Positions 35,211-55,826 of a stretch of 64,000 nt of DNA are shown here, piece after piece. Every line of letters starts with the position of its first letter. The first letter of the stretch is position 1. The stretch lies in contig JAICLZ010000013.1 of assembly GCA_025929535.1 (NCBI GenBank), positions 1-64,000 of the forward strand, read 5' to 3'. This stretch comes from Gemmatimonadaceae bacterium. Its GTDB lineage: Bacteria; Gemmatimonadota; Gemmatimonadetes; Gemmatimonadales; Gemmatimonadaceae. The translations under genes and the position numbers were made by a program. The notes below the pieces were generated by a model. It did no database searches, was not told the DNA's origin, and worked only from the letters and a program-made list of their open reading frames with translations.

Positions 35211-37334
35211 ATGATCACGGTTCAGCTCCTCGGGGGCGCAAGCCTTCGCTCGGGGAATACGGCTCTCACGGGTCCGCCCGCGCAGCGTCACCGCATCGCG
35301 CTGTTGGCGCTGATCGTGGCTGCGTGGCCGCAGCCGTTGTCGCGCGATCGTGCGATGGCGCTGCTGTGGCCCGAGCGCGATCTGGCCAACGCGCGCCGAT
35401 TGCTCAACCTCGCCGTGCACGTGTTGCGCGCAGCGCTCGGCGAAGGCGCAATCGCCTCGGCCGGTGATGGGCTGCTGCTCGATCCCTCGCTCGTGAGCTG
35501 CGATCTTCACGCGATGCGTGCGGCAATCGCAGCCGGCGCGCCCGACCGCATCGTGCGCCTCTATTCAGGTCCGCTCCTCGACGGATTTCATCTGGACGAC
35601 TCGAACGAGTTCATGTACTGGCTCGACGAGCGCCGAAGTGAGATGTCGCACGCGTACGTCGGCGCGTTGCTCGCGATCGCCGAGCGGCAGAAGCGCAGCG
35701 GCGATGTGCACGGCAGGGTGGGAACGTGCCGCAAGCTCGCTGCACTCGATCCGCACTCCGGGGTTTACGCCCAGGCGCTGATGCGCGCGCTCGACGCGGC
35801 GGGCGAGCGCACGGCGGCGATGCAGCACGCGAACGAGCACGCGCAGCGTCTGCGTGTGGACCTCGAGGTCGATCCCGATTCCGGAGTCGCCGCGCTCGCG
35901 GCGCAGCTGGCCCACGCGCCCGCGCGCCCGGATCCCGTGCTGACGCCGCGCGCGGGGATTCGCTCGTGCGTTGTGGCGGTGTTGCCATTTCTCAACCTGA
36001 GCACGGATCGCGAGAACGAGTATTTCGCCGACGGCATCACGGAGGATGTCATTGCGCATCTGTCGAAGATTCGCGCGATGGAGGTCATCTCCCGAGCCTC
36101 GGTCGTGCAGTTCAAGCCGCGGCAACAGAGCATCAAGGAAATCGCGACGGCGCTCGGCGCCACGTCGGTGCTCGATGGAAGCGTTCGGCGCGCGGGCGAC
36201 CGCGTCCGGATCGTCGCGACGCTGATCGACGCCGCGACGGACCAGCATCTCTGGGCGGACACGTACGACCGGGAGATGACGGACATCTTCGCGATTCAGA
36301 CGGATGTTGCGCTGCACATCGCTGCGGCGCTCAAGACGCAGCTGACGTCGGACGAGCAGACGCGCGTACACCGGAAACCAACGAAGGATCTGCAGGCGTA
36401 TCATCTCTTCCTGCAGGGCCGGCGATGTCTGTCGAAGTGGACGATCGCCGCGGTCGATGATGCCATCGACTGCTTCGAGCGAGCCATCGCGCGCGATCCG
36501 TCATTCGCTCTCGCCTACGCGAATCTGTCGATGGCGCACATCGAGTCTGCGGAGAGCGGCGCACGGCCACCGGGTGCGGTCTACGCGAGAGCGGAGGAGA
36601 CGATTCGCGTCGCGCTGAAGCTCGATCCCGAGCTGAGCGCGGCGCATTGCACGCTGGGCCACATGAAGATGGTGCGCGAGCTCGATTGGGCCGGCGCCGA
36701 ACAGGAGTTCAAGCGGGCGCTGGAGCTCAGTCCGAGCAACGCGGATGCGCTGGATCTGTACGGGCGACTCTGTTCCGCGCTCGGGCGGCACGACGAGGCG
36801 ATCGGACTCGTGGAGCGCGCCCGCGAGCTGGATCCGCTGGAGCATCGCATGGATCTCGCCACGGTGCTCCTGCGCGCGGGTCGCTACGACGCGGCCGTGG
36901 CGCTGTCGCGAGACGCCGTCGAGCTGGATCCGGTACACGATCGATCGGTTGCCACGCTCGGCTGGTCGTACTTGCTGAGTGGCCGCAAGGACGACGGACT
37001 CGCCCAGCTGGAGCTCGCGGTCTCGCTGTCTCCGGGGAACACGATGTGGCTCGGACAGTTGGGCGCTGCGTACGGGCTCGCTGGCGAAGCGGCAAAGGCA
37101 AAGACGATCCTGCGGGAGGTCCAGACGCGCGCGAAGAGCGTCTATGTCTCCCAGTATCATCTCGCGTATGCGCACATGGGGGCGGGCGAAATGGAGCAGG
37201 CGCTGGACATTCTCGAGCGAGCGGTGCACGAGCGCGGCGGACCGACGTATGGTATCAAGACGTCGTTTCTGTACATGCCGTTGCGCGGACATCCGCGATT
37301 TCGCGCGCTGCTGCGAACGATGAAGCTGGAATAG
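35211..37334 (+). CDS. SARP-like regulator with TolB-like and TPR domains
   Basis: Encodes 707 residues. An N-terminal winged-helix segment (about 1-90; ITVQLLGGASLRSG) and a BTAD domain (about 95-235) resemble SARP-type activators. A FlgO/TolB-like domain follows (VAVLPFLNLSTDRENEYFAD at about 258, then ITEDVIAHLSKI). From about 390 to the end there are at least seven TPR repeats. This order is known from class III cyclase-like regulators that lack the cyclase domain. It should be a cytoplasmic transcription factor tuned by protein contacts. Its own promoter region holds 11-base-spaced repeats. Confidence 0.9.
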   Translation: MITVQLLGGASLRSGNTALTGPPAQRHRIALLALIVAAWPQPLSRDRAMALLWPERDLANARRLLNLAVHVLRAALGEGAIASAGDGLLLDPSLVSCDLHAMRAAIAAGAPDRIVRLYSGPLLDGFHLDDSNEFMYWLDERRSEMSHAYVGALLAIAERQKRSGDVHGRVGTCRKLAALDPHSGVYAQALMRALDAAGERTAAMQHANEHAQRLRVDLEVDPDSGVAALAAQLAHAPARPDPVLTPRAGIRSCVVAVLPFLNLSTDRENEYFADGITEDVIAHLSKIRAMEVISRASVVQFKPRQQSIKEIATALGATSVLDGSVRRAGDRVRIVATLIDAATDQHLWADTYDREMTDIFAIQTDVALHIAAALKTQLTSDEQTRVHRKPTKDLQAYHLFLQGRRCLSKWTIAAVDDAIDCFERAIARDPSFALAYANLSMAHIESAESGARPPGAVYARAEETIRVALKLDPELSAAHCTLGHMKMVRELDWAGAEQEFKRALELSPSNADALDLYGRLCSALGRHDEAIGLVERARELDPLEHRMDLATVLLRAGRYDAAVALSRDAVELDPVHDRSVATLGWSYLLSGRKDDGLAQLELAVSLSPGNTMWLGQLGAAYGLAGEAAKAKTILREVQTRAKSVYVSQYHLAYAHMGAGEMEQALDILERAVHERGGPTYGIKTSFLYMPLRGHPRFRALLRTMKLE

Positions 37335-39936: not shown

Positions 39937-40524
39937 ATGTCGCTGTCGAAGCCGCAGGTCGAGTCACAACCCGGATCGAATGCGCAATCGTCGGCGATGA
40001 CGATCGGCAACGATGCCGAGTTCGAGGCGCTCTTCCGAGCGCACCATGCGTCACTCTGCGCGTTCGCGAGTCGCATGGTGGGCTCGCGCGCGGTCGCCGA
40101 GGAGCTGGTTCAAGAGGTGTTCCTCTATCTGTGGGAACACCGCGCCACATGGAGTGCCCATACCTCCGTTAGAACCTATTTGTTCACGGCCACCCGTAAC
40201 GTCACGCTCAACTATCTCCGTCGCGAGAAGCTGGCGGAGCGGGCGACCCTGAGCGACGAAGGAACGATTGCACTCTTCACGCGCACGCAACTCGAGATCG
40301 AGCGCGAAGTCGCCCTCGCCGAATTCGAGCGCGCGGTGAAGCGCGCGATCGCGCAGCTACCGCCGCGATGCGGCGAGGTCTACGCGTTGAGTCGCGAGCA
40401 ATACCTCAGCTACGCCGAGATCGGCGAGGTGATGGGGATCTCCACGAAAACGGTGGAGGTCCACATGGGTCGAGCGTTCAAGCTGCTGCGCAAGCATCTC
40501 GCACCTTACCTCCGAGACATGTAA
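39937..40524 (+). CDS. ECF-type RNA polymerase sigma factor (FecI-like)
   Basis: Encodes 195 residues. The ATG at 39937 follows CCGGAG; a long upstream frame is ignored as it lacks sigma homology. Region 2 reads ELVQEVFLYLWEHR near 70 and TYLFTATRNVTLNYLRRE near 90; region 4 reads LPPRCGEVYALSREQYLSYAEIG and ISTKTVEVHMGRAFKLLRK (each split here at helix turns). It should direct transcription of its neighbours, controlled by the FecR protein encoded 53 bases downstream. Similar pairs control SusC/SusD genes. Confidence 0.95.
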   Translation: MSLSKPQVESQPGSNAQSSAMTIGNDAEFEALFRAHHASLCAFASRMVGSRAVAEELVQEVFLYLWEHRATWSAHTSVRTYLFTATRNVTLNYLRREKLAERATLSDEGTIALFTRTQLEIEREVALAEFERAVKRAIAQLPPRCGEVYALSREQYLSYAEIGEVMGISTKTVEVHMGRAFKLLRKHLAPYLRDM

Positions 40525-40577
40525 GGGTCGGTTTCCTCCCGCGTTCCTCTCACATCGTAGGCTGACCTGAGCATCCC

Positions 40578-41660
40578 ATGACCAACGACGACAGCGAGTG
40601 GATGGCCCTGGCACGATACGCCGCCGGCGAATGCTCGCCCGAGGAGCGCGACACGATCCGGCGCTGGATCGCCGAGAACGAGGAGCGAGCGCGACTCGCC
40701 TTCGAGCTCGGACTGATCGGCCGCGCATCGGTGCTCGATCGCTCGGAGTGGAACACCAATGCCGCGTGGGAGCGGCTCGCCGTGCGCGCAGGCGCCCCGC
40801 GGCCTTCTCCGGTGCGTTCGCGTTCCGGACGTACGCCGAATATTCTCCAGACGCGATCGAGCGTGCGCGAGAAGCTGGCACTGTGGGGAATTGCCGCTGC
40901 GATTCTGTTCACGATAGGCGCTTTCGCGCTGCGAGACGGGCTCACGAAGTCCCGCACGATTGCCGCCGGGAATGCGGCACCCGAGCGCGAATTCGTTACC
41001 CAGCGCGCTCAGGTGACCGAAGTCCGGCTTCGCGACGGGACGACTGTCGCTCTCGCGCCCGAGAGCCGCCTGACCGTCATTCCGGGCTACGGCACGACCG
41101 AGCGGGCCGTGCGCCTGAACGGGGAAGGGTATTTCCGCGTGGCGCACGATACGCTGCGTCCATTCAGCGTGCACACCGCCAGAGGCGTTGTGCGCGACCT
41201 CGGGACTTCGTTCGCGGTGACGGACTATCCGGGCGACAGCACGTTGCGCGTGGTCGTGTCCGAGGGACGCGTGCGCGTATCGATGGCCGGTCAGCCGGCG
41301 ACGACCGGGTCGGTGCTCGAGCGGGGCGACGTCGCACATGTTGGGAATGCAGCGATTCCGAGTGTGGAGCACGGTGTCGACGTCGGGCAATACCTCGGCT
41401 GGACGCAGGGACGGCTCTCCTTCTATCGCGCGCCGCTCTCCGACGTGGTCGTGCAGCTCGGCCGCTGGTACGATCTGCGATTCGTGCTCGAGGATTCCTC
41501 GCTGCGCGCGCGCCGAGTCACGATGTCCGTGTCGACGACGTCAGCCGATGCACTCGTGGACGCCATGAGTGCGGCGCTCGGTCTGCGTGCGCTCCGACAT
41601 GGGGACACCATCACGCTGCGGGCTGACGCCCACACCCACAGCGCGGGAGAGCAACGGTGA
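40578..41660 (+). CDS. FecR-type anti-sigma factor
   Basis: Encodes 360 residues. A cytoplasmic N-terminal domain (MALARYAAGECSPEERDTI, DUF4880-like) binds the sigma factor, one membrane helix lies near 95-115 (LWGIAAAILFTIGAFAL), and a periplasmic FecR domain (LRDGTTVALAPESRLTV, then GEGYFRVAHD) is followed by the FecR C-terminal, STN-contacting domain (LSFYRAPLSDVVVQLGRWYD). This is the standard surface-signalling design: the SusC-type receptor passes the signal, FecR frees the sigma factor. Its stop overlaps the receptor's start codon by four bases. Confidence 0.94.
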   Translation: MTNDDSEWMALARYAAGECSPEERDTIRRWIAENEERARLAFELGLIGRASVLDRSEWNTNAAWERLAVRAGAPRPSPVRSRSGRTPNILQTRSSVREKLALWGIAAAILFTIGAFALRDGLTKSRTIAAGNAAPEREFVTQRAQVTEVRLRDGTTVALAPESRLTVIPGYGTTERAVRLNGEGYFRVAHDTLRPFSVHTARGVVRDLGTSFAVTDYPGDSTLRVVVSEGRVRVSMAGQPATTGSVLERGDVAHVGNAAIPSVEHGVDVGQYLGWTQGRLSFYRAPLSDVVVQLGRWYDLRFVLEDSSLRARRVTMSVSTTSADALVDAMSAALGLRALRHGDTITLRADAHTHSAGEQR

Positions 41661-44600
41661 CGGTGAACGGCCGCTCGCGCGCGCGCAGACGAAAGCGCGT
41701 GAAAGACGTTCGTGGTGTGATGCGGTTCGCCGCCGCGCTCGCGCTGCTCGCGTTCGCGCTGGCGAGCAGCACGCGCGCCCTGCTTGCGCAGACGCAGGAC
41801 AGCATGACGCGGCAGGCTTCAGCCCCGGCCGACTCGGCTCCGGCATCGCCGGGCAAGGATGAGGACGCGCGGGGAGTCTCGGTGATGAAGCGGCGCATCA
41901 CCATCGACCTCCGGCGGGCGTCGCTCGCCGATGCGCTTCTGGCGGTGGCACAGAGCGGCGGCGTGGGACTCGTTCACGGTGATGACGTCGCGTCCGACAC
42001 CGCGCTCGTCACGGTGCACTTGGTCGACATCGAGCTGGGGAAGGCATTCGAGCAGGTGCTGCGGGGCACGGGCTTCGTGGCCAGAGAGAAGTCGGGCGTC
42101 GTCGTGATCATCCGCGACGCGAGGCCACGTGCCGATGCGGCGAGCGACACCGTGTGGGGAGGTGTCTGGGGACAGGTAACAGACTCCGCAACATCGAAAC
42201 CGCTCGGCGGAGTAGAGGTGACGATTCGCGGCTTGCGCGCGCGAGCGACAACGAATGACAGCGGCTACTACATCATGCGCACGCCACTCGGCGCCTACAT
42301 CGCCGTCGCGCGGCTCCTCGGCTACGATCCCGTGGAGCGCAACTTTCTCGTGCGCGAGGATCCGCAGACGAATAACGGCACGCGACTCGACCTCGTCATG
42401 CGCGTCCACGCGCAGAAGATGCAGGAAGTGATCGTCACCGCGAGCGGCCCGCAGCGAAGGCTCGAGCTTCCGAACGACATCGTGACGATCAATGCCGACT
42501 CGGTGATGAAGATCGCGCCGGTCACCAATGTCACCCAGCTGCTCGAGGGTCGCGTGCCTGGGTTGGACATCCAGCACACGTCGGGTGTGCCCGGAGATCC
42601 GTCGAGATTGCGATTGCGCGGAATCGGCAGCATCACGCGCGACAATGCGCCGATCGTCATCGTCGATGGAATTCGACTCGACGTTTCGGAGGCGCGGACG
42701 CAGAACTTCGCGTCGTCGAGCTCGATCAGAGGCTATCTCGCTCCCTCGCGGCTCGATCAGATCGATCCCAACAGCATCGCGACGATCGAGATCTTCAAGG
42801 GTCCATCCGCCGCATCACTCTACGGTTCCGATGCGGCGAACGGCGTCATCGTCATCACGACGAAGAAGGGGCGCGCCGGTCCTCCGCAGTGGCAGGCCTC
42901 GTCGACACAGGGCATCTCGACGCTTCCCGGATCATACCCGGTTTCTCTGTACCGATGGGGTCACCTCGTGGAAGGCGGTGGGCCCATTCAGTGTCCGCGC
43001 ACGAACTACCAGTGCATCCAGGACAGTCTCGTCGCATTTCAGGCGCTGAACGACCCTCAGCTCAGGCCGTTCGCACTGGGACATCGTTCCGACGCGACGC
43101 TCTCCGTAAGCGGCGGCTCGCAGTCGCTGACGTATTCGCTGACGGGAAGCGGAAGCCACGACGTCGGACTCTTTCGACTCCCGGACGTGGATGTCCAGCG
43201 CTACCAGCTCATTCAAGGGACGCCGGCGCCGAGCTGGATGAGGCGCCCCGACCAGCTCACGACTTGGGCCGGATCCAGCCAGATCACGACGACCATCGGT
43301 TCATCGGCCTCGGTCTCGCTCCTCTCCTCTCTTACTTCACAAGAGCAGCAACGCTCGAGCATCGAATCGGCCATCGGCGAACTGGAAGGAGAGTTTGTCG
43401 ACCGGTCGCAGCTTGGCGTCCAGCCGCTCATCCTCGGAGGCTTCGAACGGGCGCGCTCGAAGTCACTCAACTTCACCAACTCGGCAAATCTCAGCTGGAA
43501 TCCGTGGACGTGGCTTCCTGTCACCGCCACCCTGGGCGTGAGTGTCGACAACAGGGATGATGAGTCGCTGCTTCCCCACGGTCTGACCGAAGACATCGAC
43601 AGTGCGGGACACTTCGGGGCGGCGTCGCAGCACATCGTGACCGAGACGGTGGATGTCGGAACCAACATCGTGAGCAAGCTCCCGTGGGGGATGCGGCTGA
43701 CGACGGGAGTGGGGATGAATCTCTACACGACCTCCGGTACGGTCCAGTCGGGATCGACCTTCTTCGTTCCCGTCGGCGTGGAGACACCGCAGCATTTGGG
43801 CGATGCATCGGAGAGCACCACACATACCACGACCATCGGCTGGAGAGTCGCGCCGACACTCGCAATCACGCCACGACTTCTGCTCTCGCCTGGATTCCGC
43901 ATCGATGGGGGCAGCACCTCCGGCCGTCACGCGGCTTTCAGCGGCTTCCCCAAAATGGGAGCATCGTGGCTTCTCTCCGACGAGAAGTTCTTTCCGTACA
44001 AGAAGATCTTCAACACGATGCGCCTTCGCCTGGCTTACGGGCACGCGGGCGTGCAGCCCGGACTCACCGATCGCCTTCGTCTGTACGAATCCGGTACGCT
44101 GGTTCCGATCACCGGGGATACGGTGCTCGACGGACTCGTACTGACCTCGCTCGGGAATACGCTGCTTCGTCCCGAGCGCGCGAGGGATCTCGAGGGAGGA
44201 TTCGATGCGGACCTGTTCGACAGCCGCATCACGCTCACGTACAGCGGGTACTCGAAGCTCGTCAAGGACGAGATCGTGCAGATTCCCGTGGCACCGTCAG
44301 TGAATGGCGGCGGCTTGCGGTTCGTGAACATCGGGGAGGTGAGCGACCGTGGGGCGGAGTTGAGCCTGGGCTTCGAGCCGTTGCGGTCACCGACGGTGAC
44401 CTGGAGTGTGAACGTCACCTTCAGCACGAACGCGAACAAGCTCGAGCACCTCGCCGCGGACCAGCTGCCAATCGATCTCGGCGATGGGCGACGCATCGCG
44501 CCCGGATACCCGCTGTTCGGGCAGTGGGCCAAGCCGGTGGTCGGATGGGTGGACCGCAACGTCGATGGAATCATCGACTCCTCCGAGGTGTTGCTCGGCG

Positions 44601-45079
44601 ACTCCGCCACTTTCCTGGGGCAGCCGCAACCCAAGTACAACGCGGCGCTGTCCACCACGATCGGACTGTTTCACGGACGCCTCACGCTGAACGCGGGCTT
44701 CACCTACCAGGATGGCGCGTCGCAGTTCAATCAGGGCGCGTCGCAGGCGCTCCTGCAGGCTGCCAATGACCCGAACGCATCGCCCGGCACGCAGGCAGCC
44801 GTCGCCGTTGCGAACCTGACGCCCTACGGTCTGATCCAAACCGTGAACACCCTGCGCTTCAATTCGTTCTCCGTGGGCGTAGCAATGCCATCGCGATTTG
44901 CGGCGGCGTTCCGTGCGCGCACGATGTCGCTGGCGTTGCTCGGCTCCAACCTCGCACTGCACACGAACTACCGCGGGCTCGATCCCAACGTGAATGCGTT
45001 CGTGGGCGATGGAAATCTGGACAACGGAGTACTGCCGCAGCCGCGCACCTTCTCGCTCAGCATCCGTCTCAGCAACTGA
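41657..45079 (+). CDS. SusC/RagA-type TonB-dependent transporter with STN domain
   Basis: Encodes 1140 residues from GTG 41657; ATG 41720 would put the signal peptide (FAAALALLAFALAS) at the N-terminus. A secretin/TonB N-terminal (STN) domain (about 80-155) is the contact for FecR. A CarboxypepD_reg-like domain (about 170-255) and the plug with SusC signatures (LRLRGIGSITRDNAPIVIVDG near 315, then KGPSAASLYGSDAANGVIVI) precede the barrel. It imports substrates handed over by SusD. The operon carries peptidases and no glycosidase, so peptides rather than glycans are the likely cargo. Confidence 0.95.
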   Translation: MTVNGRSRARRRKRVKDVRGVMRFAAALALLAFALASSTRALLAQTQDSMTRQASAPADSAPASPGKDEDARGVSVMKRRITIDLRRASLADALLAVAQSGGVGLVHGDDVASDTALVTVHLVDIELGKAFEQVLRGTGFVAREKSGVVVIIRDARPRADAASDTVWGGVWGQVTDSATSKPLGGVEVTIRGLRARATTNDSGYYIMRTPLGAYIAVARLLGYDPVERNFLVREDPQTNNGTRLDLVMRVHAQKMQEVIVTASGPQRRLELPNDIVTINADSVMKIAPVTNVTQLLEGRVPGLDIQHTSGVPGDPSRLRLRGIGSITRDNAPIVIVDGIRLDVSEARTQNFASSSSIRGYLAPSRLDQIDPNSIATIEIFKGPSAASLYGSDAANGVIVITTKKGRAGPPQWQASSTQGISTLPGSYPVSLYRWGHLVEGGGPIQCPRTNYQCIQDSLVAFQALNDPQLRPFALGHRSDATLSVSGGSQSLTYSLTGSGSHDVGLFRLPDVDVQRYQLIQGTPAPSWMRRPDQLTTWAGSSQITTTIGSSASVSLLSSLTSQEQQRSSIESAIGELEGEFVDRSQLGVQPLILGGFERARSKSLNFTNSANLSWNPWTWLPVTATLGVSVDNRDDESLLPHGLTEDIDSAGHFGAASQHIVTETVDVGTNIVSKLPWGMRLTTGVGMNLYTTSGTVQSGSTFFVPVGVETPQHLGDASESTTHTTTIGWRVAPTLAITPRLLLSPGFRIDGGSTSGRHAAFSGFPKMGASWLLSDEKFFPYKKIFNTMRLRLAYGHAGVQPGLTDRLRLYESGTLVPITGDTVLDGLVLTSLGNTLLRPERARDLEGGFDADLFDSRITLTYSGYSKLVKDEIVQIPVAPSVNGGGLRFVNIGEVSDRGAELSLGFEPLRSPTVTWSVNVTFSTNANKLEHLAADQLPIDLGDGRRIAPGYPLFGQWAKPVVGWVDRNVDGIIDSSEVLLGDSATFLGQPQPKYNAALSTTIGLFHGRLTLNAGFTYQDGASQFNQGASQALLQAANDPNASPGTQAAVAVANLTPYGLIQTVNTLRFNSFSVGVAMPSRFAAAFRARTMSLALLGSNLALHTNYRGLDPNVNAFVGDGNLDNGVLPQPRTFSLSIRLSN

Positions 45080-45095
45080 GCGCCAGGAGATCACC

Positions 45096-46520
45096 GTGAA
45101 GATCACTGCAATGCGAACATCTGAACCGCGACGCACGGCACGGCATGTGACGGGCGCGTCGTTCCTCGCGTTGGTCGTGGCGCTCGCGGCCTGCCGCGAT
45201 CTGCTGAACCCACCGCTCCCGGCCGGAACGCAGGACCCCAGCTCGTTCAACAACGAGGCTGGCGCGATGGCGCGATACGGCGATGCCGTCGGCAGTGCGT
45301 GGGACGCGTTCGTCCAGTACGCGCGCGCGAGCGGCTCCATGACCGACGAGCTGCGCGTCGCGACGGTTCCCCCGTCCGGCGTGGTGGGGGACCCATTCGA
45401 TGAGCGGATTCTTTCCGAGTTCGCTTCCACGCCTTTCAACATTCCGGCGAACGACTCGGTAGCGCGGATCTACGAGGTGCTGCACGTAAGTCGGGGGGCG
45501 GACAACGAGGCCATCGGCGCTCTCGCCAAGTATGCGCCCAACAAGCCGGCATCGCTCCGCGCCGAGCTCTACGCATACACCGCGTTCGATGAGATCGAGT
45601 TGGCCGATCTCTTCTGCTCCGGAATTCCACTCAGCACCCTCGATTTCGAGGGCGACTTCACGTACAAGCCGGGAAGCCCGACCGTCGATGTGTATCGGCA
45701 CGCAATCGCGCTGCTCGATACGGCGCGCACGGTCGGCGCGGACGATGCGAACATCGTGCGCCTTGCCGCGGTGGGCACTGGACGCGCCCTGCTGGCTCTC
45801 GGGGATTACGCCAACGCGGCGCAGGCGGTCGCCGGCGTTCCGGATGACTTCCGTTTCGATCACCCGGTTCACTGGCAGGGAACCACGCTGGGGTTCGGAG
45901 GAGTTCTTCCGATTCTGGCGACCTACACTGTCGCGAACGGTGAGGGGCGGAACGGGCTTGCGTATCTCGACAGTCATGATCCTCGCTCGGCGTCGGAGCA
46001 GATTGGAACGAGTCAGTCGGGCGAGGCGGTCTTCACACCGACCGCGTACATCGGCATAACCCCATTCGTCCTCGCGAGCGGTGTGGAGGCCCGACTCATC
46101 GAGGCCGAGGCCGCGCTCCAGGCGACGGATGCGAGCTGGCTCAACACGCTCAACACGCTCCGCACCGACGGCACCTTCGACACACAACCGAACGCGCAGA
46201 ATCCGGCGCAGACGGACACGCTGTGGCACGCAGGAACCGCAGGTGTGTCTGGACTCGCGCCGCTCGATGACCCCGGGTCCGCGGACGCGCGAGTCGATCT
46301 GCTCTTCAGGGAGCGCGCCTTCTGGCTGTTCATCACCGGGCACCGCCAGGGCGACCTCCGGCGGCTGGTCCGCCAGTATCACCGCCGGCAGGAAGACGTG
46401 TATCCCACCGGCTTCTATCAGGGTGGACTCAGCGCATATGGTACCGACGTGACCGCGCCGATCCCACCGCTGGAGCGCCTGAATCCCAACTTCACCGGCT
46501 GCATCAACCGTGATCCGTGA
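45096..46520 (+). CDS. SusD/RagB-type nutrient-binding lipoprotein
   Basis: Encodes 474 residues from a GTG with AGGAG eight bases upstream. The signal peptide ends in ALAAC, a lipobox. Helical TPR-like segments are visible (LRAELYAYTAFDEIELADLF near 155, RALLALGDYANAAQAVAG near 235), and the C-terminal part has the SusD-typical LLFRERAFWLFITGHRQGD LRRL region near 415-435. It forms the lid over the SusC barrel and selects the ligand. The start lies 16 bases after the SusC stop. Confidence 0.92.
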   Translation: MKITAMRTSEPRRTARHVTGASFLALVVALAACRDLLNPPLPAGTQDPSSFNNEAGAMARYGDAVGSAWDAFVQYARASGSMTDELRVATVPPSGVVGDPFDERILSEFASTPFNIPANDSVARIYEVLHVSRGADNEAIGALAKYAPNKPASLRAELYAYTAFDEIELADLFCSGIPLSTLDFEGDFTYKPGSPTVDVYRHAIALLDTARTVGADDANIVRLAAVGTGRALLALGDYANAAQAVAGVPDDFRFDHPVHWQGTTLGFGGVLPILATYTVANGEGRNGLAYLDSHDPRSASEQIGTSQSGEAVFTPTAYIGITPFVLASGVEARLIEAEAALQATDASWLNTLNTLRTDGTFDTQPNAQNPAQTDTLWHAGTAGVSGLAPLDDPGSADARVDLLFRERAFWLFITGHRQGDLRRLVRQYHRRQEDVYPTGFYQGGLSAYGTDVTAPIPPLERLNPNFTGCINRDP

Positions 46521-46530
46521 GGACCGACTC

Positions 46531-47583
46531 GTGATGTCATCTGGACGTCGCGCGCGAACGCACGCTCGCGTGAGCGCGAAGTTCATGGGAGCCGTGTTCA
46601 CCATCCTGACACTGGGGTGTGGAACCGATTACGTCACCACCCCGCCTCCAACGGGGTCGGGCGACTTGTTCGCGTCGCTCGTGCTCGATCATCACGCCAT
46701 CGCGCTGTCGACGACAGCTCCGAACAACACCATCCAGCTCACCGCCAACGCGATCAACGCGCAGGGCCAGCCGCTTCCCGGGGCGGGGCAGGCGACGTTC
46801 AGCCTGAGCGATACCGGTAGCGTGTCCATCACATCGGACGGCATGCTCACGGCGAAGTCGCCCGCGACCGGAGTGCTGGTGGTCGCCACGCTCAGCAACA
46901 GGAATCTCACACACAAGGACACCGCGTACGTGAACGTGAACGACGTCGCGACGCCGCCCATCCTTGCCAACTTCTCGATCCAGCCGAGTCAGGGAGACAG
47001 TGCAAAAACGGCGGCGCTCGATCAATTCGGCTTGTTCGGCCTGAAGCAGATCCTCCCTCAGGAGAACGATGCCGGCGGGACGCCGATCGACGGCATCCCC
47101 GTCTTCTTCTCCACAGCCGATCCGACCGTCGCGAGAGTGGAGCCCGCCACCGGCGTGGTGACTGGTCTCCGCCCCGGAACGGTGAAGATCCGGGCCAACA
47201 CTACGGCGTACGGCGTGACGATGAGCGACTCGGTCGTGTTCACGATCACGCCTCCGCTCATCGGCGCCGTCGTGGCGCTTCCGTTCACGCCCGCGGGTGC
47301 GACGTCACCGACGCTTCGGTGGGAGCCCGGAACGATCGAGGTGAGTGCCGGAGCGACGGTGCTCTTCATCGTTCTGACTCCGCACAAGGACATCGATGTC
47401 GTGTTCGATGATCCAACAGACGTGGGGGAGTCGCCGCTCGCGCCGAGCGGCGGCGGTGACATCCCGCTGTTCAACGCGCCCGATGAGAATGGCATTTTCA
47501 TAGCGCGCAGTTTCCCGGTGCCCGGGAGCTACAACTACCACAGCACGACCTTCGACACCCACGGGACGATCATCGTCCGGTGA
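46531..47583 (+). CDS. Lipoprotein with Ig-like domains and a cupredoxin-like end
   Basis: Encodes 350 residues from GTG 46531, with GAGGA seven bases upstream. The signal peptide ends in TLGC. Two BIG2-like Ig domains follow (about 40-130; and DPTVARVEPATGVVTGLRPG near 200). The last 100 residues read like a cupredoxin fold: WEPGTIEVSAGATVLFIVL and PGSYNYHS, then THGTIIV. The usual C-x-H-x-M copper motif is not complete: Ser stands where Cys is expected. It probably sits at the cell surface beside SusD. The role, binding or electron transfer, is open. Confidence 0.8.
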   Translation: MMSSGRRARTHARVSAKFMGAVFTILTLGCGTDYVTTPPPTGSGDLFASLVLDHHAIALSTTAPNNTIQLTANAINAQGQPLPGAGQATFSLSDTGSVSITSDGMLTAKSPATGVLVVATLSNRNLTHKDTAYVNVNDVATPPILANFSIQPSQGDSAKTAALDQFGLFGLKQILPQENDAGGTPIDGIPVFFSTADPTVARVEPATGVVTGLRPGTVKIRANTTAYGVTMSDSVVFTITPPLIGAVVALPFTPAGATSPTLRWEPGTIEVSAGATVLFIVLTPHKDIDVVFDDPTDVGESPLAPSGGGDIPLFNAPDENGIFIARSFPVPGSYNYHSTTFDTHGTIIVR

Positions 47584-47635
47584 CCCGGAGCGCCGTTCGT
47601 AATGCGCCCGCGTGCACTTTCATCTCTGTGAATTC

Positions 47636-49270
47636 ATGCTGATCACACGACGCAGTCTGTTGCACTCTGGTCTCAAGGTCGGCGTCGCAACGGCCGCGGT
47701 GGCCGCACTCCCGCGTCCGTTGCTCGCACAACTCGGCCGGACGCTCGAGCCGCTCCCGCCGATCGAGGATCCGAGACTCAAGGCGCTCACCGCCCGCGCA
47801 CTCGAAGCGGCCCGCAGCGCCGGCGCCAGCTACGCCGATGTTCGTCTCACCCATGAGCGGGTGCGCGTGTTCTCCGTCAGCACTCGCGTCGATGACAGCG
47901 AGAGCATGCTCGCGGGCGTGCGCGCGCTGGTGGATGGGTACTGGGGCTTTGCATCGAGCCCCGTGTGGTCGCCCGATGAGATGGCGCGGCTCGCGCGTGA
48001 GGCGGTGCATCAGGCCAAAACGAACACGCTCGGCAAACCGCGTGCGGTAGACCTCGCGCCCACGCCCGTTGTCGCTGAGGGACACTGGGAAATGCCGCTC
48101 GCGATCGATCCTTTCGAGACGTCTCCCTTCGAGATAAGCGATTTCCTCGACAGCCTGATCGTCTACCTGAACCGTACTCCGAACGCGAAGATCAACTCGG
48201 ATTCCTGCACCGCGGTCGTGCAGGAGCGCGCATTCGCATCGACCCTGGGAAGCTACTGCACGCAGCGATGCTATCGCACGGCGGGTGCATTCTCCTTCGA
48301 GCGCGAGCTCGAGCACGGACAGCGTGGCTCGACTTACCTGGATTGTCTCACCGCCGCCGGGATGGGCTGGGAGCTCTACACGGCCGAGCGCATTCCGCGC
48401 GTCCGAGACCACACGCTGTACGAGGAGATCGACCGCGCGCTCGAGGAGCTGAAGCAGGACCTGCTGCTCCCTGTGAAGGCGGTGGAGGTCGGGCGCTACC
48501 AAGCCGTCTTCGATCCCGTCACGGTTGCCGGCATCCTCGACGAGACCATAGGCCGCGCCACCGAGCTCGATCGCGCGCTGGGGTACGAGGCAAATGCGGG
48601 CGGCACCAGCTATCTGAACGATCCCATCGCCATGCTCGGGAGCTATCAGGCCGGCGCGCCCACGCTCACCGTCACCGCCGAGCGCAGCGAGGCAGGCGCA
48701 GTTGGCACGGTCAAGTGGGATGATGAAGGAGTTGCGCCAGATGCGTTCCCGCTCGTGAAGAACGGCGTGCTCGCCGACTTCCAGACCACGCGCGAGAGTG
48801 CGCGATGGCTCGAGGCTGCGTACACGAAGCACGGCATTCCCATGCGCTCGCATGGCTGCGCGGCGGCGCCTTCGGCGGTATTCGCTCCGCTGCAGCACAC
48901 GCCAAACCTCACGCTTGCCCCGGGGCATGACGCCAGGGACTTCGACTCGCTCGTGAGTGGAATCGTACGCGGCATCGCCGTGAAGAGCGGCTCTGTCGAT
49001 CTCGACTTCCAGCACTCGAGCGGACTCGGGTCGGGACGGCTCTACGAGGTGAAACAGGGCAAGCGGGTGGCGCGACTGGCCGGTGGCTTTCTGTTTCGAG
49101 CAACGGACCTGTGGAAATCACTCCAGGCACTCGGCGGCGAGGGAGGGCTGCGCCGCTACGGGCTGAGCGCGATGAAGGGCGAGCCGGCGCAGGAGCACTA
49201 CCACAGCGTGACGGCGCCCGCCGCCGTGGTGAAGGACCTGACGATCATCGATCCGCTGAGGAAAGCATGA
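47636..49270 (+). CDS. TldD-like protein with lost HExxxH, Tat-exported
   Basis: Encodes 544 residues. The ATG at 47636 begins a Tat-type signal (ITRRSLLHSGLKVGVATAAV). TldD/PmbA N-terminal features follow (ASYADVRLTHERVRVF). In active TldD proteases a HExxxH motif binds zinc; here the same site reads DETIGRATELDRALGYEANA at residues 302-321. Both histidines are replaced (His to Asp302, His to Arg307), while Glu303 and the following TELDRALGYEAN, which is typical of such exported relatives, remain. Each change needs only one base. It is either a pseudoenzyme or works without zinc. Its stop overlaps the next gene. Confidence 0.9.
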   Translation: MLITRRSLLHSGLKVGVATAAVAALPRPLLAQLGRTLEPLPPIEDPRLKALTARALEAARSAGASYADVRLTHERVRVFSVSTRVDDSESMLAGVRALVDGYWGFASSPVWSPDEMARLAREAVHQAKTNTLGKPRAVDLAPTPVVAEGHWEMPLAIDPFETSPFEISDFLDSLIVYLNRTPNAKINSDSCTAVVQERAFASTLGSYCTQRCYRTAGAFSFERELEHGQRGSTYLDCLTAAGMGWELYTAERIPRVRDHTLYEEIDRALEELKQDLLLPVKAVEVGRYQAVFDPVTVAGILDETIGRATELDRALGYEANAGGTSYLNDPIAMLGSYQAGAPTLTVTAERSEAGAVGTVKWDDEGVAPDAFPLVKNGVLADFQTTRESARWLEAAYTKHGIPMRSHGCAAAPSAVFAPLQHTPNLTLAPGHDARDFDSLVSGIVRGIAVKSGSVDLDFQHSSGLGSGRLYEVKQGKRVARLAGGFLFRATDLWKSLQALGGEGGLRRYGLSAMKGEPAQEHYHSVTAPAAVVKDLTIIDPLRKA

Positions 49271-50766
49271 GAGCTCGCACGACGAGTGGCGGCAGCGCGC
49301 TGGACCGACGCGCCGAACCGAGGCGTCTCCTCGCTGCTGAGGAGCGTATTCTCACCAAGGACACGTGCGAGGCCATCGCGCGCCGCGTCTTCGCGTTGGC
49401 CCGCGGCGGGGGCGAGACATTCGTTCAGATCGGGAGCTGGACGAGGGGAGAGCTTCGCTGGGCACGCAATCGTGTCAGCCTCGCGAGTGACCGAAGGGAT
49501 GTGGAGATCGGGATTCGGAGGTTCATCCCCAGCGCAGGGGAAGGGGATGTAACCACCAATCAGTTCGACGATGAATCGCTCGAGGCCGCGGTGCGCGCGG
49601 CCGAGCGGATGGCGGCGTCCGCGCACGCGCCCGTGCGGCCGACGCCGGGACTGCCGCCTCAGCCTGTGGGCACCTGGCCGAAGACCGCGATCTGGAGCGA
49701 CTCCACCTACACGATGTCCGCAGATACGCGTGGAGAGATCGCCCGTTCGCTGATCGACCCCGCCGAGGCCAAGGGGTATCTCTCGGCCGGGTACATCGAG
49801 ATGCACGCGGGGACGTCCATGCGCGTGAGCTCCGAGCGCCCGGCGGGTCCGTACGCCGTTGTCGATGTTCCGTACGTCCAGTGGACGCAGGCGCAGTGCT
49901 CGATGACCGTCCGCGACCAACAGGGCGCAGGCTCCGGCTGGGCGGGCCTCTCGAGCTACGACTGGCAAAGCATCGACCCCGCCAGCCTCGGCGCACGCGC
50001 GCTCCAGAAATGCGAGGCGTCGAGGAGCCCGGTCGTTCTCGAGCCGGGACGCTACACCGTGATCCTCGAGCCGCAGGCGGTGGCCGACCTGATGCGGGTC
50101 ATCGTCGGATCGATGCGGAGGATCGATGCGGAGAGCGGAGGCGGCCCGTGGGCACTCGCGATGGACGACGCGCTGCGCATCGGCGACTCGCCAGTTTGGC
50201 GAACGAAGCTGGGACTCAAGGTGATCGATGAGCGAATCACGATCGATCACGATCCCGCCGATCCGCGGCTCGGCATCCTCCCCGAGCCGTGGATGGAGCC
50301 CGTTACGTTCTTCGACAAGGGCGTCCTGACGAATCTCTTCTACGCCCGCGACTACGCGCTTGCATCTCTCAGCAGGAACGCGCCGCGTCGAGGGATGTGG
50401 GGATACCGCATGAGCGGCGGCACCACGTCCGTCGACGAGATGATTGCCAGCACGCAGCGCGGGCTTCTCGTGACGCGCTTCTCGGATATCCGCGAGCTGG
50501 ACGCGGGCACCTTGCTCTCCACTGGGCTCACCCGGGATGGCCTGTGGCTCGTCGAGCACGGAAAGATCTCGAAGGCGGTGAAGAATCTTCGCTTCACCGA
50601 ATCACCGCTCTTCATGCTCAACAGCATCGAGCAGCTCGGCGTACCGGTGCCGGTATTTCGGCCCGTGCGAGACGCATACGAGCAGCAGATTCCGCTCACA
50701 CCGGCGATCGTGCCGCCTCTCAAGGCCCGCGACTTCAGCTTCACCTCCACCATCGATGCGATCTGA
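49267..50766 (+). CDS. PmbA/TldE-like protein
   Basis: Encodes 499 residues from an ATG overlapping the TldD-like stop. TldE-type landmarks: FVQIGSWTRGELRWARNRVS near 55, RYTVILEPQAVADLMRVIVG near 265, and the C-terminal KAVKNLRFTESPLFMLNSIE near 435. TldE normally lacks HExxxH and acts as partner to catalytic TldD; the paired TldD here is itself altered. No signal peptide is visible at the start, so either it is carried out with the Tat-exported partner (hitch-hiking) or the two meet elsewhere. Confidence 0.9.
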   Translation: MRARTTSGGSALDRRAEPRRLLAAEERILTKDTCEAIARRVFALARGGGETFVQIGSWTRGELRWARNRVSLASDRRDVEIGIRRFIPSAGEGDVTTNQFDDESLEAAVRAAERMAASAHAPVRPTPGLPPQPVGTWPKTAIWSDSTYTMSADTRGEIARSLIDPAEAKGYLSAGYIEMHAGTSMRVSSERPAGPYAVVDVPYVQWTQAQCSMTVRDQQGAGSGWAGLSSYDWQSIDPASLGARALQKCEASRSPVVLEPGRYTVILEPQAVADLMRVIVGSMRRIDAESGGGPWALAMDDALRIGDSPVWRTKLGLKVIDERITIDHDPADPRLGILPEPWMEPVTFFDKGVLTNLFYARDYALASLSRNAPRRGMWGYRMSGGTTSVDEMIASTQRGLLVTRFSDIRELDAGTLLSTGLTRDGLWLVEHGKISKAVKNLRFTESPLFMLNSIEQLGVPVPVFRPVRDAYEQQIPLTPAIVPPLKARDFSFTSTIDAI

Positions 50767-50768
50767 CC

Positions 50769-52244
50769 GTGCCCACCTCCATTCGTCGACCGATCGGCTG
50801 GACGCCACGCCGGCTCGCACCCATCGCTGCGCTGTGCATGGCGCTCGCGTTCCCATTGTCCGCCGCCGCGCAGACGCGCTTCACGTGGCCCGATACGACG
50901 GTGGACCTCAGCAAGTACACGAGAGTCGACCAGTGTCGTGCTGCGCTCGTTCGGATCCAGCAGGGGCAGATTGCCCTTCGCAGGCAGACCGAATGGAGCG
51001 ACACCATGACATACGACGTGCAGGAGAACTTGAAGCCTCTTCCCGTGCCGGTGAGGCAGGCGGCCGCTCGCTGCTCTGCGCGATTTGAACCGGCTACCGC
51101 GAAGCTGAGCGACTTCACGCTCCTCATGGAGCTCTTTCTCCTCGCCGATCGCGACGCGGACGCGAAGGCGCTGCTCGAGCGGCGGCAGTCGGCGATCACC
51201 GCAAAGGGTTCGCTCGAGCGTATCGCCGTCGAGGACTCGGCGATTCTCATCTATCTCAAGGTGCTTCCACGACGCCTCGATGCCGCCGAGCAGCTGCTGG
51301 TCACTCGCGCGCACGGTGGCGTGGATCGGCTGGACAGGCTGGAGCTGTACGATCGCTTGATGGAAGCAGCGCGCGAAGCCGGCGACACCACACGTTCACG
51401 CAGGGTGGCTCAGTGGATGCTCGCCGTGGCGGACTCCCTCACGCCGGCGGAGCGGGAATCCGAGAAGTTCACGAAGATGGGTGCGAACCGCGGCAACCTC
51501 GTCGTCTTCTCGGCGATGTTCGAGATCGTGGGAGTGAAGACGCTCACCGACAGCCTTCGCCACAGCACGATGGCGATGGCCAACCTGATGCGCAGCATGT
51601 GGGCCCGGTTCACGAAGGAGCGTCCGGAAGCGCTCCCCTATCCCCTGGGAGAGCATGCTCCGGCGATCACGGGTGATTTCTGGTATCCGCGTCAGGCGGC
51701 GGGAGACAAACACCCGGCACCCGGTCGCGTATCCATCGTCGAGTTCGTCGACAATTCTCGCCTCTACGGCAGTTGCATGAACGATGCTCCCTGGTCGGCG
51801 ATCGCCGACTTTTGCGCGCCCAACTATTACATGCTGCGACGGCTGGGCGATCGCTTCCCCGGGATCGACATCACGTTCGTCGTGGGAACCAGAGGCAACT
51901 TCCTGCACGCACCACCGCCCACGCCCGCGGAGGAAGCGGAGCTGTACCACAACTGGATCGATCCGTATCGCATCAAGGGTGCGGTAATGTCGGTGACGAC
52001 TCGCCCGTTCTGGAATCTTCCGGCGCCGGACGGACGGCGCCTGGAGAAGCCCTCGGCGAACTCGGTTGCCTACAGCTTCGGGAAGAGCTGGAGTCCCGAC
52101 CAGGGGGCAGGAGGCGGCGGCAGGTATCTCGTCGACCAGGATGGGCTCGTCGTCGACGTGTTCTTCAACGAGCAGGCGACGATTCAGTTCATCGACGTTC
52201 TCATGCATCGCCAGAAGGCGGGAGGCGATCGTGCGGAAAGGTAG
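50769..52244 (+). CDS. Exported protein with thioredoxin-fold C-terminus
   Basis: Encodes 491 residues from GTG 50769. A signal peptide ending AAAQ is followed by a helical part (about 40-300). From about 315 the sequence (RVSIVEFVDNSRLYGSCMN, then FPGIDITFVVGTRG, and YLVDQDGLVVDVFF) follows the thioredoxin/AhpC pattern. The active-site CxxC is absent: cysteines stand apart in GSCMND and ADFCAP. It may bind rather than oxidise. The gene lies two bases after the TldE-like stop and overlaps the M16 gene by 14 bases. Confidence 0.75.
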   Translation: MPTSIRRPIGWTPRRLAPIAALCMALAFPLSAAAQTRFTWPDTTVDLSKYTRVDQCRAALVRIQQGQIALRRQTEWSDTMTYDVQENLKPLPVPVRQAAARCSARFEPATAKLSDFTLLMELFLLADRDADAKALLERRQSAITAKGSLERIAVEDSAILIYLKVLPRRLDAAEQLLVTRAHGGVDRLDRLELYDRLMEAAREAGDTTRSRRVAQWMLAVADSLTPAERESEKFTKMGANRGNLVVFSAMFEIVGVKTLTDSLRHSTMAMANLMRSMWARFTKERPEALPYPLGEHAPAITGDFWYPRQAAGDKHPAPGRVSIVEFVDNSRLYGSCMNDAPWSAIADFCAPNYYMLRRLGDRFPGIDITFVVGTRGNFLHAPPPTPAEEAELYHNWIDPYRIKGAVMSVTTRPFWNLPAPDGRRLEKPSANSVAYSFGKSWSPDQGAGGGGRYLVDQDGLVVDVFFNEQATIQFIDVLMHRQKAGGDRAER

Positions 52245-55134
52245 AATCGTACGGCGCATCGCCGTGAGCGCGCTGGGGCTGACGATGCTCGCCGTCGCTG
52301 GCGCGGCTGCAGCCACCGTTGGAGATGACGCGACCACCGGGAGCATCGCGCAGTCATCCGGGGAAGTCCTCCGCGACTCATCGCTCGTGATCGGCACGCT
52401 CCCAAACGGGTTGCGCTACTACCTCCGCGCCAACCGTGCGCCAGCGCACCGCGTCGAGCTGCGGCTCGCTGTGAACGCCGGTTCCGTGCTCGAGGACAAG
52501 GATCAGCAGGGGTTCGCGCACTTTCTCGAGCACATGGCGTTCAACGGCACAACGCACTTCCCGCACAATGAGCTCGAGGACTTCATCGAGACTGCCGGGA
52601 TGCGCTTCGGGGCGGACCTGAACGCGTTCACGTCGCCGGATGAGACGGTGTACATGCTCACCCTGCCCTCCGACGATGCGACAATTCTCTCGCAGGGGCT
52701 CGACGTCGTGCAAGACTGGGCGGGCGGCGGGATCCTGATCGACTCGAACGAGGTCGTGGCCGAGCGCGGCGTGGTGATGGGAGAGTGGCGAACGCGACTC
52801 CAGGATACCGTCACCCAGCGCGTGACGCTGCACTTCGACACGCTTCTGTACGGCGGCTCGCCGTACCTCGACCGACAGCCGATCGGCGACACGACGCTGC
52901 TCGAGCACGCACAGCCGAGCCCCATTCGCCGATTCTATCATGACTGGTACCGTCCGGATCTGATGGCGGTGGTGGTCGTCGGCGACTTCGATCCCGCGGT
53001 GATGCAGACAGAGATCGTGCGGCGCTTCGGGGCAATTCCCGCGGCCAAGAGCCCGCGGCACAGGCTCACGCCGACGCTGCGGTCCGTCTCCGGAACGCTG
53101 GTGCACGATTATCTGGGACCCGTCACTCCCAGCGCGGAGGTGGTGTGGCCCGTGCCTCCGACTCCGAGCGATCCGCGACTGGCGTTTCGCCAGGAGATCG
53201 TGCAGGCGCTCCTGACTGATGAGCTGCAGAAGCAGCTTCTCGGAATCGGCACTCGCCCGTCACGACCCTTCATCATCGCGCAGCTCGAGCAGGGGCGTGT
53301 CGTGCGCCCGTACAACGTAGCGGGATTTCAGCTCATCGCCTGGCCGGACAGCCTCGAGCGCGGTCTCGCGACCGTCATCGGCGAATACGAGCGTATTGCG
53401 CGCGGCGGGATTCCAGCGGCGACGCTCGAGCGGCGGAAGGCCGTACTGCTGAAGCGCTACGAGCATGCGGCGGCGAGTGAGCGCGCGCTCACCTCGGGTG
53501 CATATGCGGACGAGTACGTGCAGCACTTCCTCACTGCGGATGTCTCGCTCCTGAGCGCCACGCAGGAGCTCGCGCTCGCTCGGCCCATTCTCGAGACGGT
53601 CACTCCGCAGGTGCTCGCCCAGGCGGCTCGCGTATGGCGCCAGTCGGCTGGGCGCCGCGTGACGATCAACATCCCCGAGTTCTCGCACGTGCGTCCAGCC
53701 ACGAAGGAGCGCGTGCTCGCGCTCTTCGACTCGGTCCAGCGCGCGCCGATCTCTCCGCTCATCGACAGTGTGGCCGCGAGTCTGGGTGGTCCGCTCCTCG
53801 CGAGCGCGCCGAAGCCCGGCACCATCGTGCAGGAGAGCGTGGACAGTGCGTCGGGGATAACCGAGTGGACATTGTCCAACGGCGCGCATGTACTCGTCAA
53901 GCCGACGCAGAACGATCCGGACGAGCTCCTCCTGAATGCGTGGGGTCCGGGCGGATTCTCCACGATGCCGGATTCGCTTTTCTTCACCCCCGGCCGCATG
54001 GTGGCGCGCCTGATGACCGATGTCGCGAACCTCGGTTCCTTTGGGCATCCGACGCTCTCCGACAATCTGGAGCTCAGCGGACTCCGTTCCTTCAACGCGA
54101 ACATCGGCTTCACCGATCAGACGATGGCGGTGAACGGCTCGCCCAAGTCGCTCGAGACGCTCTTCCAGCTCCTGCACGTGCAATTCACCGCGCCCATCAT
54201 CGACTCGGCGACGCTTGCCAGCTGGAAGACGGTGGCCAAGTACCAGTTCGCGGGATACTCGATCGACGACCAGCTCAATCAACAGCTGGCCGGCGACAAT
54301 CCGCGCATGCAGCCGGTGCAGACGAATCTCGCGGAGCTGGCGTCGGTGCGGCAGCTCCGCGCGGTGCATCACGATCGCTTCGGGAACGCGAGCAATTTCA
54401 CGTTCACGGTGGTGGGTGCGATCTCGCCCGCAGAAGTGAAGCCGTTCGTGGAACGCTACGTCGCGAGTCTGCCGAGCACGGGACAGCACGAGACGCCGAA
54501 GGGCGAGGATGTGAAGCCGTTTCTGCACCGGTTGAACCGGATCGTCAACACGATCCCTCTTCCCAAGGCGCAGACCTTCCTGATTTTCGACGGACCCTTC
54601 ACGACAAAACCCGACGAGTACCTGCTGGAGCGACAGCGGCTGAGCGCACTCACGACGGTGTTCCAGGATCGCCTGCGCATGCGCGTGCGCGAGCAGCTGT
54701 CGGGCACGTATTCCCCCTTCGTCATGAGCGAGACCCTCGCCATTCCCGACGAACATTTCCGTGTCATCGCCACGTTCGATGCGGCACCGGAGCGCATGCA
54801 CCGGTTGAACGTCGCGCTCGAGCATCTCGTGGACACGCTGCGAACGCAGAGCGTGACCGAGGCCGAGGCGTCGAGGGTGGCGACCGTGCAGCGGCGACAG
54901 CTCGAGACGCGGCTCCAGAGCAATGCGTACTGGGCACAGACGATGATGCTCTACCACCGCATCGGAATTCCCCTGGATCGCATCCCGTCGCCGTTTCCCG
55001 AGCGGGAGGTGCCCGCTGTGCAGCTACAGGCTGCCGCGCAGCGCTATCTGCCGGACGACGTGTTCATGCACGTCACGTTCATGCCGCAGGACAGCACCAG
55101 CTACGCACAGGGCGATTCGACGCGCACGCGCTGA
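52231..55134 (+). CDS. M16-family (pitrilysin-like) zinc peptidase, two-domain, exported
   Basis: Encodes 967 residues from GTG 52231, overlapping the preceding gene by 14 bases. The signal peptide is LTMLAVAGAAAATVG-like. The inverted zinc motif HxxEH is intact (HFLEHMAFNGT, His97, Glu100, His101), and the third ligand lies in NEVVAERGVVMGEW about 75 residues later. The C-terminal M16 half (about 510-967) includes LSGTYSPFV typical of the family. M16 enzymes cleave peptides of about 5-70 residues, including leader peptides of modified peptides and PQQ precursors. In this operon it is the only peptidase with complete catalytic residues. Confidence 0.95.
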   Translation: MRKGRIVRRIAVSALGLTMLAVAGAAAATVGDDATTGSIAQSSGEVLRDSSLVIGTLPNGLRYYLRANRAPAHRVELRLAVNAGSVLEDKDQQGFAHFLEHMAFNGTTHFPHNELEDFIETAGMRFGADLNAFTSPDETVYMLTLPSDDATILSQGLDVVQDWAGGGILIDSNEVVAERGVVMGEWRTRLQDTVTQRVTLHFDTLLYGGSPYLDRQPIGDTTLLEHAQPSPIRRFYHDWYRPDLMAVVVVGDFDPAVMQTEIVRRFGAIPAAKSPRHRLTPTLRSVSGTLVHDYLGPVTPSAEVVWPVPPTPSDPRLAFRQEIVQALLTDELQKQLLGIGTRPSRPFIIAQLEQGRVVRPYNVAGFQLIAWPDSLERGLATVIGEYERIARGGIPAATLERRKAVLLKRYEHAAASERALTSGAYADEYVQHFLTADVSLLSATQELALARPILETVTPQVLAQAARVWRQSAGRRVTINIPEFSHVRPATKERVLALFDSVQRAPISPLIDSVAASLGGPLLASAPKPGTIVQESVDSASGITEWTLSNGAHVLVKPTQNDPDELLLNAWGPGGFSTMPDSLFFTPGRMVARLMTDVANLGSFGHPTLSDNLELSGLRSFNANIGFTDQTMAVNGSPKSLETLFQLLHVQFTAPIIDSATLASWKTVAKYQFAGYSIDDQLNQQLAGDNPRMQPVQTNLAELASVRQLRAVHHDRFGNASNFTFTVVGAISPAEVKPFVERYVASLPSTGQHETPKGEDVKPFLHRLNRIVNTIPLPKAQTFLIFDGPFTTKPDEYLLERQRLSALTTVFQDRLRMRVREQLSGTYSPFVMSETLAIPDEHFRVIATFDAAPERMHRLNVALEHLVDTLRTQSVTEAEASRVATVQRRQLETRLQSNAYWAQTMMLYHRIGIPLDRIPSPFPEREVPAVQLQAAAQRYLPDDVFMHVTFMPQDSTSYAQGDSTRTR

Positions 55135-55173
55135 CGCAGCACGAATACGAACTCCTCACTCGAGGTTCTGCCA

Positions 55174-55599
55174 ATGTCTGCCGCACAAAAAATGGGACGC
55201 CGCGTAGCAATGATTGCACTCGCATCGGCCGGAGCGCTCGTGATGGCTTGCGCGACCGGAGGAAATGGAAGCACTGCTGCCGCCTCGGCAACATCGGACA
55301 GCGCCTCCAGCTCACGCACGTCGAGCCGGGACATGCTCACGGGCGATCAGCTGATGAACACCGCGGGGGCGAACGCCTACGACGCTATCCAGACACTTAG
55401 GCCGGAGATGCTCACGGGTCACGGGCTCGGTGCTCCCGATGTCTACATCCGCGAGCTCCGGGAGCCGAAGGGAGTCGAGCGGCTCAAGGAGATTCCGCTC
55501 GCCCAGGTGCAGCAGGTGCAGTATCTAAAGCCGGAGGATGCGCGCAGCCTCAGAGGCCAGCAGTCGCAGGGCGGCGCGCTGCTGGTGACGCTGCGCTAG
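55174..55599 (+). CDS. Small lipoprotein of the AYDAIQTLRP type
   Basis: Encodes 141 residues. The lipobox is VMAC, followed by a Ser/Thr/Ala linker. The mature part has LTGDQLMNTAGANAYDAIQT and RPEMLTGHG, then IREL and LKEIPLAQVQQVQYLKPEDA, a pattern repeated in many small lipoproteins of Gemmatimonadota-like genomes, seemingly a plug-like beta-alpha domain. No enzyme motif. It stands 39 bases after the M16 stop and may close that operon; a terminator follows at 55793. Confidence 0.8.
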   Translation: MSAAQKMGRRVAMIALASAGALVMACATGGNGSTAAASATSDSASSSRTSSRDMLTGDQLMNTAGANAYDAIQTLRPEMLTGHGLGAPDVYIRELREPKGVERLKEIPLAQVQQVQYLKPEDARSLRGQQSQGGALLVTLR

Positions 55600-55792: not shown

Positions 55793-55826
55793 GGCCTTCG
55801 GTTTGTCCGAAGGCCTTTGCTTTGTT
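55793..55826 (+). terminator. Intrinsic terminator
   Basis: GGCCTTCGG (55793-55801) and CCGAAGGCC (55807-55815) form a perfect 9-bp stem with a TTTGT loop, followed by TTTGCTTTGTT. It is the best placed end for the long SusCD-peptidase transcript and its last lipoprotein gene. A T-rich flank on the other strand means it could act in both directions. Confidence 0.85.

Follow-up and report, generated by a model that had tools for sequence, protein, structure and literature searches.

A conserved SusCD-linked gene module of Gemmatimonadota carries a TldD-like protein stripped of its metal site

The window, a stretch of 64,000 nucleotides from a Gemmatimonadaceae bacterium, contains ten co-directional genes between positions 39937 and 55599 of the forward strand, running from an ECF sigma factor to a small lipoprotein (Table 1). 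Every gene that a first-pass annotation had named in this interval was found where it had been placed. Neighbouring genes overlap or lie no more than about 55 bp apart, and some of the start codons were chosen among alternatives. The hairpin past the last gene is the strongest forward terminator-like hairpin, and the region holds just as many such sites as shuffled sequences do on average; its support is therefore modest. Upstream of the locus, positions 35211–37334 encode a large protein that, by eye, looks like a regulator at its N-terminus with TPR-like repeats after it.

Table 1. Features of the locus, with positions in the window.
Feature	Position	Strand	Evidence
ECF sigma factor, TIGR02985 type	39937..40524	+	TIGR02985, 156 bits
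FecR-type anti-sigma/sigma regulator	40578..41660	+	FecR and FecR_C both above cut-off
SusC-type TonB-dependent transporter, N-terminal STN-like domain	41657..45079	+	TIGR04056/TIGR04057; STN 24.7 bits
SusD-type surface lipoprotein, lipobox LAAC	45111..46520	+	predicted fold matches SusD family
Lipoprotein, Ig-like part and cupredoxin-like C-terminus without conserved copper ligands	46534..47583	+	weak family matches, alignment
TldD-like protein, twin-arginine (Tat) signal, D-E-T-I-G-R at HExxxH, third ligand gone	47636..49270	+	
TldE/PmbA-like partner, own signal peptide not evident	49267..50766	+	
TPR-like and thioredoxin-fold protein, signal-like N-terminus, two conserved Cys, variable spacing	50763..52244	+	alignment, model, fold search
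M16 peptidase, signal-like N-terminus, both M16 halves, HFLEH intact	52243..55134	+	PqqL, FusC among nearest solved structures
Small lipoprotein, lipobox VMAC	55174..55599	+	relatives at two further loci
Terminator-like hairpin (9 pairs, 7 G-C, T-rich tail) past last gene	55793..55815	+	

The SusC-type protein scores 346 bits against TIGR04056, slightly under the cut-off of 368, and lies above the cut-off of the SusC signature TIGR04057. Its STN domain is weak, below the cut-off of 28.4 bits. The ECF sigma factor and FecR adjoin this STN-bearing TonB-dependent receptor, as they do in other loci whose contigs extend far enough. The SusD-type protein has no match in Pfam and no sequence match in the PDB; it was assigned by its predicted fold, from a structure model of modest quality (pLDDT 57.7). 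SusD-family proteins top the matches of this fold (BF3747, E=2e-6), and RagB, the RagAB peptide transporter and BT2263 are also listed. On the basis of the model, the SusC-type protein and the adjoining SusD-type lipoprotein probably constitute a SusCD import pair. The SusD label of the first-pass annotation thus holds at the level of fold, while its Ig/cupredoxin label is weak: Big_2 gives 19 bits, below the cut-off, plastocyanin gives 17 bits, and the alignment of the cupredoxin-like part shows no conserved Cys/His/Met copper pattern.

The protein annotated as thioredoxin-like keeps that label, to which an N-terminal TPR-like helical domain has to be added according to the model and the fold search. 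It was also assigned by predicted fold and not by sequence, and its fold matches are weak, none reaching E≤0.001. In the M16 peptidase, Pfam and NCBIfam models match both halves, and the HxxEH motif is intact across the M16 copies with a readable N-terminal half. Among its nearest solved relatives are PqqL and FusC, both encoded within clusters for TonB-dependent import (PMC6793856). Several loci yielded no M16 (that of G113, those seen in G328, and L182), although many loci lie on short contigs, where an absent M16 or ECF gene at the contig end means little. Because several loci were found without it, cutting by M16 is not core to the module. No glycosidase or other carbohydrate enzyme was found among the ten genes with Pfam and NCBIfam, so the locus does not qualify as a polysaccharide utilization locus; no iron-handling gene is present among the ten either. 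The proposal that a sigma/anti-sigma-linked SusCD module carries peptidase-family proteins instead of glycosidases is supported, and this arrangement is conserved.

The TldD-like and TldE-like proteins both exceed the cut-off of PF19289 (PmbA_TldD_3rd), with 60.6 and 74.3 bits, respectively, which places them in the PmbA/TldD family as a TldD with its TldE partner. In E. coli TldD, the metal is bound by His262 and His267 of the HExxxH motif together with Cys454, and Glu263 is the catalyst; Gemmatimonas TldD has Asp instead of Cys as the third ligand (PMC5810440). The window TldD reads DETIGR at this position and lacks the metallopeptidase motif. All 27 TldD-like proteins of the module type, the window copy included, lack both HExxxH and the third metal ligand, and the earlier claim that TldD/E acts here as a trimming peptidase is not supported. 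The motif is kept in all 62 other exported TldD proteins sampled in the phylum (HE-type), none of which has SusD nearby. The same division was seen in the first sample, whose loci mostly have wide flanks: 60 of 60 exported TldD proteins of the HExx[A/G]H type lacked SusD nearby, one having a SusC match 8.3 kb away, and 8 of 8 motif-less proteins lay in this module. Adding copies from G229 and G328 brought the totals to 62 HE-type and 27 motif-less proteins, the window included; those from G328 were found through the Pfam family and thus regardless of SusCD linkage.

The first-pass annotation had named separation of the peptidase genes from SusCD as a refuting outcome; this was tested, and the genes proved to be retained together. 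SusC or SusD lies on the same contig piece for 25 of the 27 motif-less TldD proteins. One of the two exceptions (L041) is at a contig edge with the thioredoxin and M16 genes adjoining, and the other (L216) has only ECF/FecR nearby.

The ligands have been lost as a set. The first His is kept in 2 of the 27 proteins, in one of them together with Glu (LLHETLGA), the second His is kept in one other, and no protein keeps all three residues. Asp506, the likely third ligand in the phylum, is found in 60 of the 62 HE-type proteins (the other 2 are gaps) and in none of the motif-less group (4 gaps). His519 is likewise a feature of the HE-type that is absent from the motif-less group. In every alignable HE-type exported TldD of the phylum, the Asp at the third-ligand position is accompanied by this extra His near the C-terminus. 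Equivalents of the structural salt-bridge residues of E. coli TldD persist in the motif-less group (Glu270 in 22/27, Asp272 in 25/27 and Lys456 in 19/27), and the Tat Arg pair is kept in 26/27. The metal site is gone while much of the TldD scaffold remains.

In the phylogenetic tree, the motif-less TldD proteins form one clade with a support of 100/100, all of them set apart from the rest by a fully supported branch. The simplest account is a single loss of the motif that was then inherited, and the 27 copies are not 27 independent events. Because a single long branch separates the motif-less from the HE-type TldD, linkage to SusCD and loss of the motif may go back to one ancestral event and have been inherited jointly, rather than reflecting repeated selection. 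The split is also seen within single genomes. In the genome of the window, the window copy and its paralogue L042 are motif-less and L043 is of the HE-type; in G328, L204 and L215 are of the HE-type and nine SusCD-linked copies are motif-less. L043 (contig C131) consists of two tandem HE-type TldD/TldE pairs with Tat signals outside the SusCD module, and its second TldE has an in-frame TAG.

The gene set recurs in a paralogous locus of the same genome (L042, on contig C17) and in five other Gemmatimonadota genomes (G229, G073, G006, G113 and G328). This recurrence is far beyond chance and marks the genes as a genuine module. To establish gene order, HMMs were made from the window together with as many as eight seed loci, and the other loci were scanned only for relatives of the ten genes. 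The order of the window is the same in L042 and G073 and partly kept in G229, G113 and G328; G006 has nearly the same set in a different order, and its small lipoprotein was not recognised. Two layouts can be distinguished. One includes the Ig/cupredoxin lipoprotein and often M16 (the genome of the window, G229, G073, G006 and G113). The other, in most G328 loci, reads SusC-SusD-Trx-TldD-TldE, with low thioredoxin scores and no recognised M16.

The module is rare and patchy, yet multiplied where it is present. The thioredoxin profile matches 14 of the 395 genomes sampled in the phylum. The profile of module-type TldD passes 1e-150 in six of the 179 genomes of the family; five of these score 739–911 bits, and the sixth (G196, 512 bits) is of the HE-type, as read from the motif in L050. 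Two genomes show large expansions: G229 has 18 places that match the TldE profile, some of them fragments, and G328 has 27 PF19289 places, counting both subunits. Loci L206–L214 of G328 are a large expansion of units of SusCD and motif-less TldD/E; a thioredoxin-like gene often precedes TldD, M16 was not recognised, and some units adjoin further ECF/FecR genes. When the window copy is compared with L042, L039 and L040, its receptor half (41657–47583) is far more divergent than its TldD/E half (SusC 41–44% identity, TldD 63–69%), unlike other paralogue pairs (SusC 51–69%, TldD 58–73%). From these identities, a module swap in the window copy is possible. Faster divergence of the receptor half than of the processing half was considered as a general rule and rejected, since it fails among the other paralogues.

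The in-depth searches covered Gemmatimonadota. A contig scan for the module outside the phylum gave only two loci, both from a single Gemmatimonadaceae MAG. Searches of plasmids gave only distant TldD matches, one weak SusD match in Gemmatirosa, and generic SusC or M16 matches. The M16 neighbourhoods examined in Bacteroides and Massilia contain no annotated SusCD pair, and TldD, SusC and SusD occur together in none of the papers searched.

Among the closest known systems are the protease-associated Fus ferredoxin import and Ydd/PqqL clusters, described in Proteobacteria, which likewise combine a TonB-dependent transporter with a related M16 peptidase (PMC6793856). In contrast to these, the window has SusC/SusD and no FusA-type receptor, its module adds the motif-less TldD/E and the TPR-thioredoxin protein, and M16 is not constant; TldD and SusD are unmentioned in the paper on the Fus clusters (PMC6793856). 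RagAB and other SusCD peptide transporters share the SusC barrel and the SusD lid with the module, which differs from RagAB in its ECF/FecR control. We know of no TldD/E, thioredoxin or M16 partner of RagAB. E. coli TldD/E is a pair of the same Pfam families (PMC5810440); unlike it, the module TldD carries a Tat signal, lacks the metal ligands and is tied to SusCD.

We propose that the module is an inducible outer-membrane SusCD importer of a peptide or small protein, in which a catalytically dead, Tat-exported TldD/E holds the cargo. We give this reading a probability of about 50%. That the substrate is a peptide is suggested by analogy, from the PqqL/FusC-like M16 and the TldD/E family. Most characterised SusCD pairs import glycans, which counts against a peptide cargo. 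Cargo bound at SusCD would induce the operon by way of STN, FecR and the ECF sigma factor, as in systems of the FecA/FecR type, and its uptake into the periplasm through SusCD would be powered by TonB. The TldD/E-like heterodimer would be exported folded by the Tat system, TldE riding on the signal of TldD. With the metal site of TldD gone, the inner cleft of the heterodimer would hold an extended chain without cutting it. The TPR-thioredoxin protein may act on disulfides or bind the chain, and M16, with its intact motif, would cut the chain where it is present. A holder role is plausible because the catalytically inactive E263A mutant of E. coli TldD held a hexapeptide, hydrogen-bonded via its backbone atoms only (PMC5810440). 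However, one side chain of that peptide also touched the zinc (PMC5810440), which is absent from the motif-less TldD, and this counts against the analogy.

Other explanations have to be weighed against the holder role. The motif-less TldD/E might be a factor that assembles SusCD or the lipoproteins in the periplasm, or controls their quality, the substrate being something else, such as a glycan, a cofactor or a siderophore-like compound. In favour of such a factor, TldD/E accompanies SusCD constantly whereas M16 comes and goes, and nothing in the sequence fixes the substrate. However, the ten genes include no glycosidase, and M16 and TldD/E are peptide-handling families; to our knowledge, characterised SusCD systems also function without TldD/E. 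We therefore regard this explanation as unlikely, though with a real share of the probability. Piracy of iron or a cofactor in the style of Fus, in which a metal-bearing protein is imported and its metal released through cleavage by M16, would account for the kinship of M16 with PqqL and FusC, and iron systems are often under ECF/FecR control. The SusCD receptor in place of a FusA-type one, the loci that lack M16 and the absence of iron-handling genes among the ten make it rather improbable.

Two further explanations would leave TldD/E an enzyme. A different catalytic chemistry may have replaced the metal site of TldD; in favour of this, the clade is old and conserved and 53 alignment columns are near-invariant in it. 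In nearly all of these columns the residue is shared with the HE-type group, however, and the residues new to the clade (Ala298, Val519 in most copies and Asp533 in the first eight) make no evident catalytic set. The HExxxH positions themselves vary freely among the copies. New chemistry thus seems quite improbable. The first-pass annotation had instead pictured an active TldD/E that trims an imported or self-made modified peptide, including RiPP leaders. Although the family membership of TldD/E and the intact M16 motif fit this picture, the loss of the ligands already contradicts TldD catalysis, and no YcaO or LanC-like gene was found in any of the six genomes carrying the module, which leaves the RiPP-leader idea unsupported. 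Trimming of peptides could fall to the genome's separate HE-type pairs, but these lie outside the locus. We give active trimming hardly any credence.

The holder reading can be extended to a class of Gemmatimonadota SusCD importers in which the dead, Tat-exported TldD/E shell is the cargo holder, expanded in single genomes to about ten or more copies, each copy presumably serving a peptide or protein of its own. This extension is tentative, and we place it a little below even odds. SusCD systems are usually taken as glycan importers, and a conserved SusCD family tied to peptide-handling proteins widens this view. If the holder role is correct, the module would clearly exemplify a protease turned carrier: a pseudopeptidase that has retained its partner and its structural residues but lacks the metal site in every copy. 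The function of TldD/E as a binding chamber would also become directly testable.
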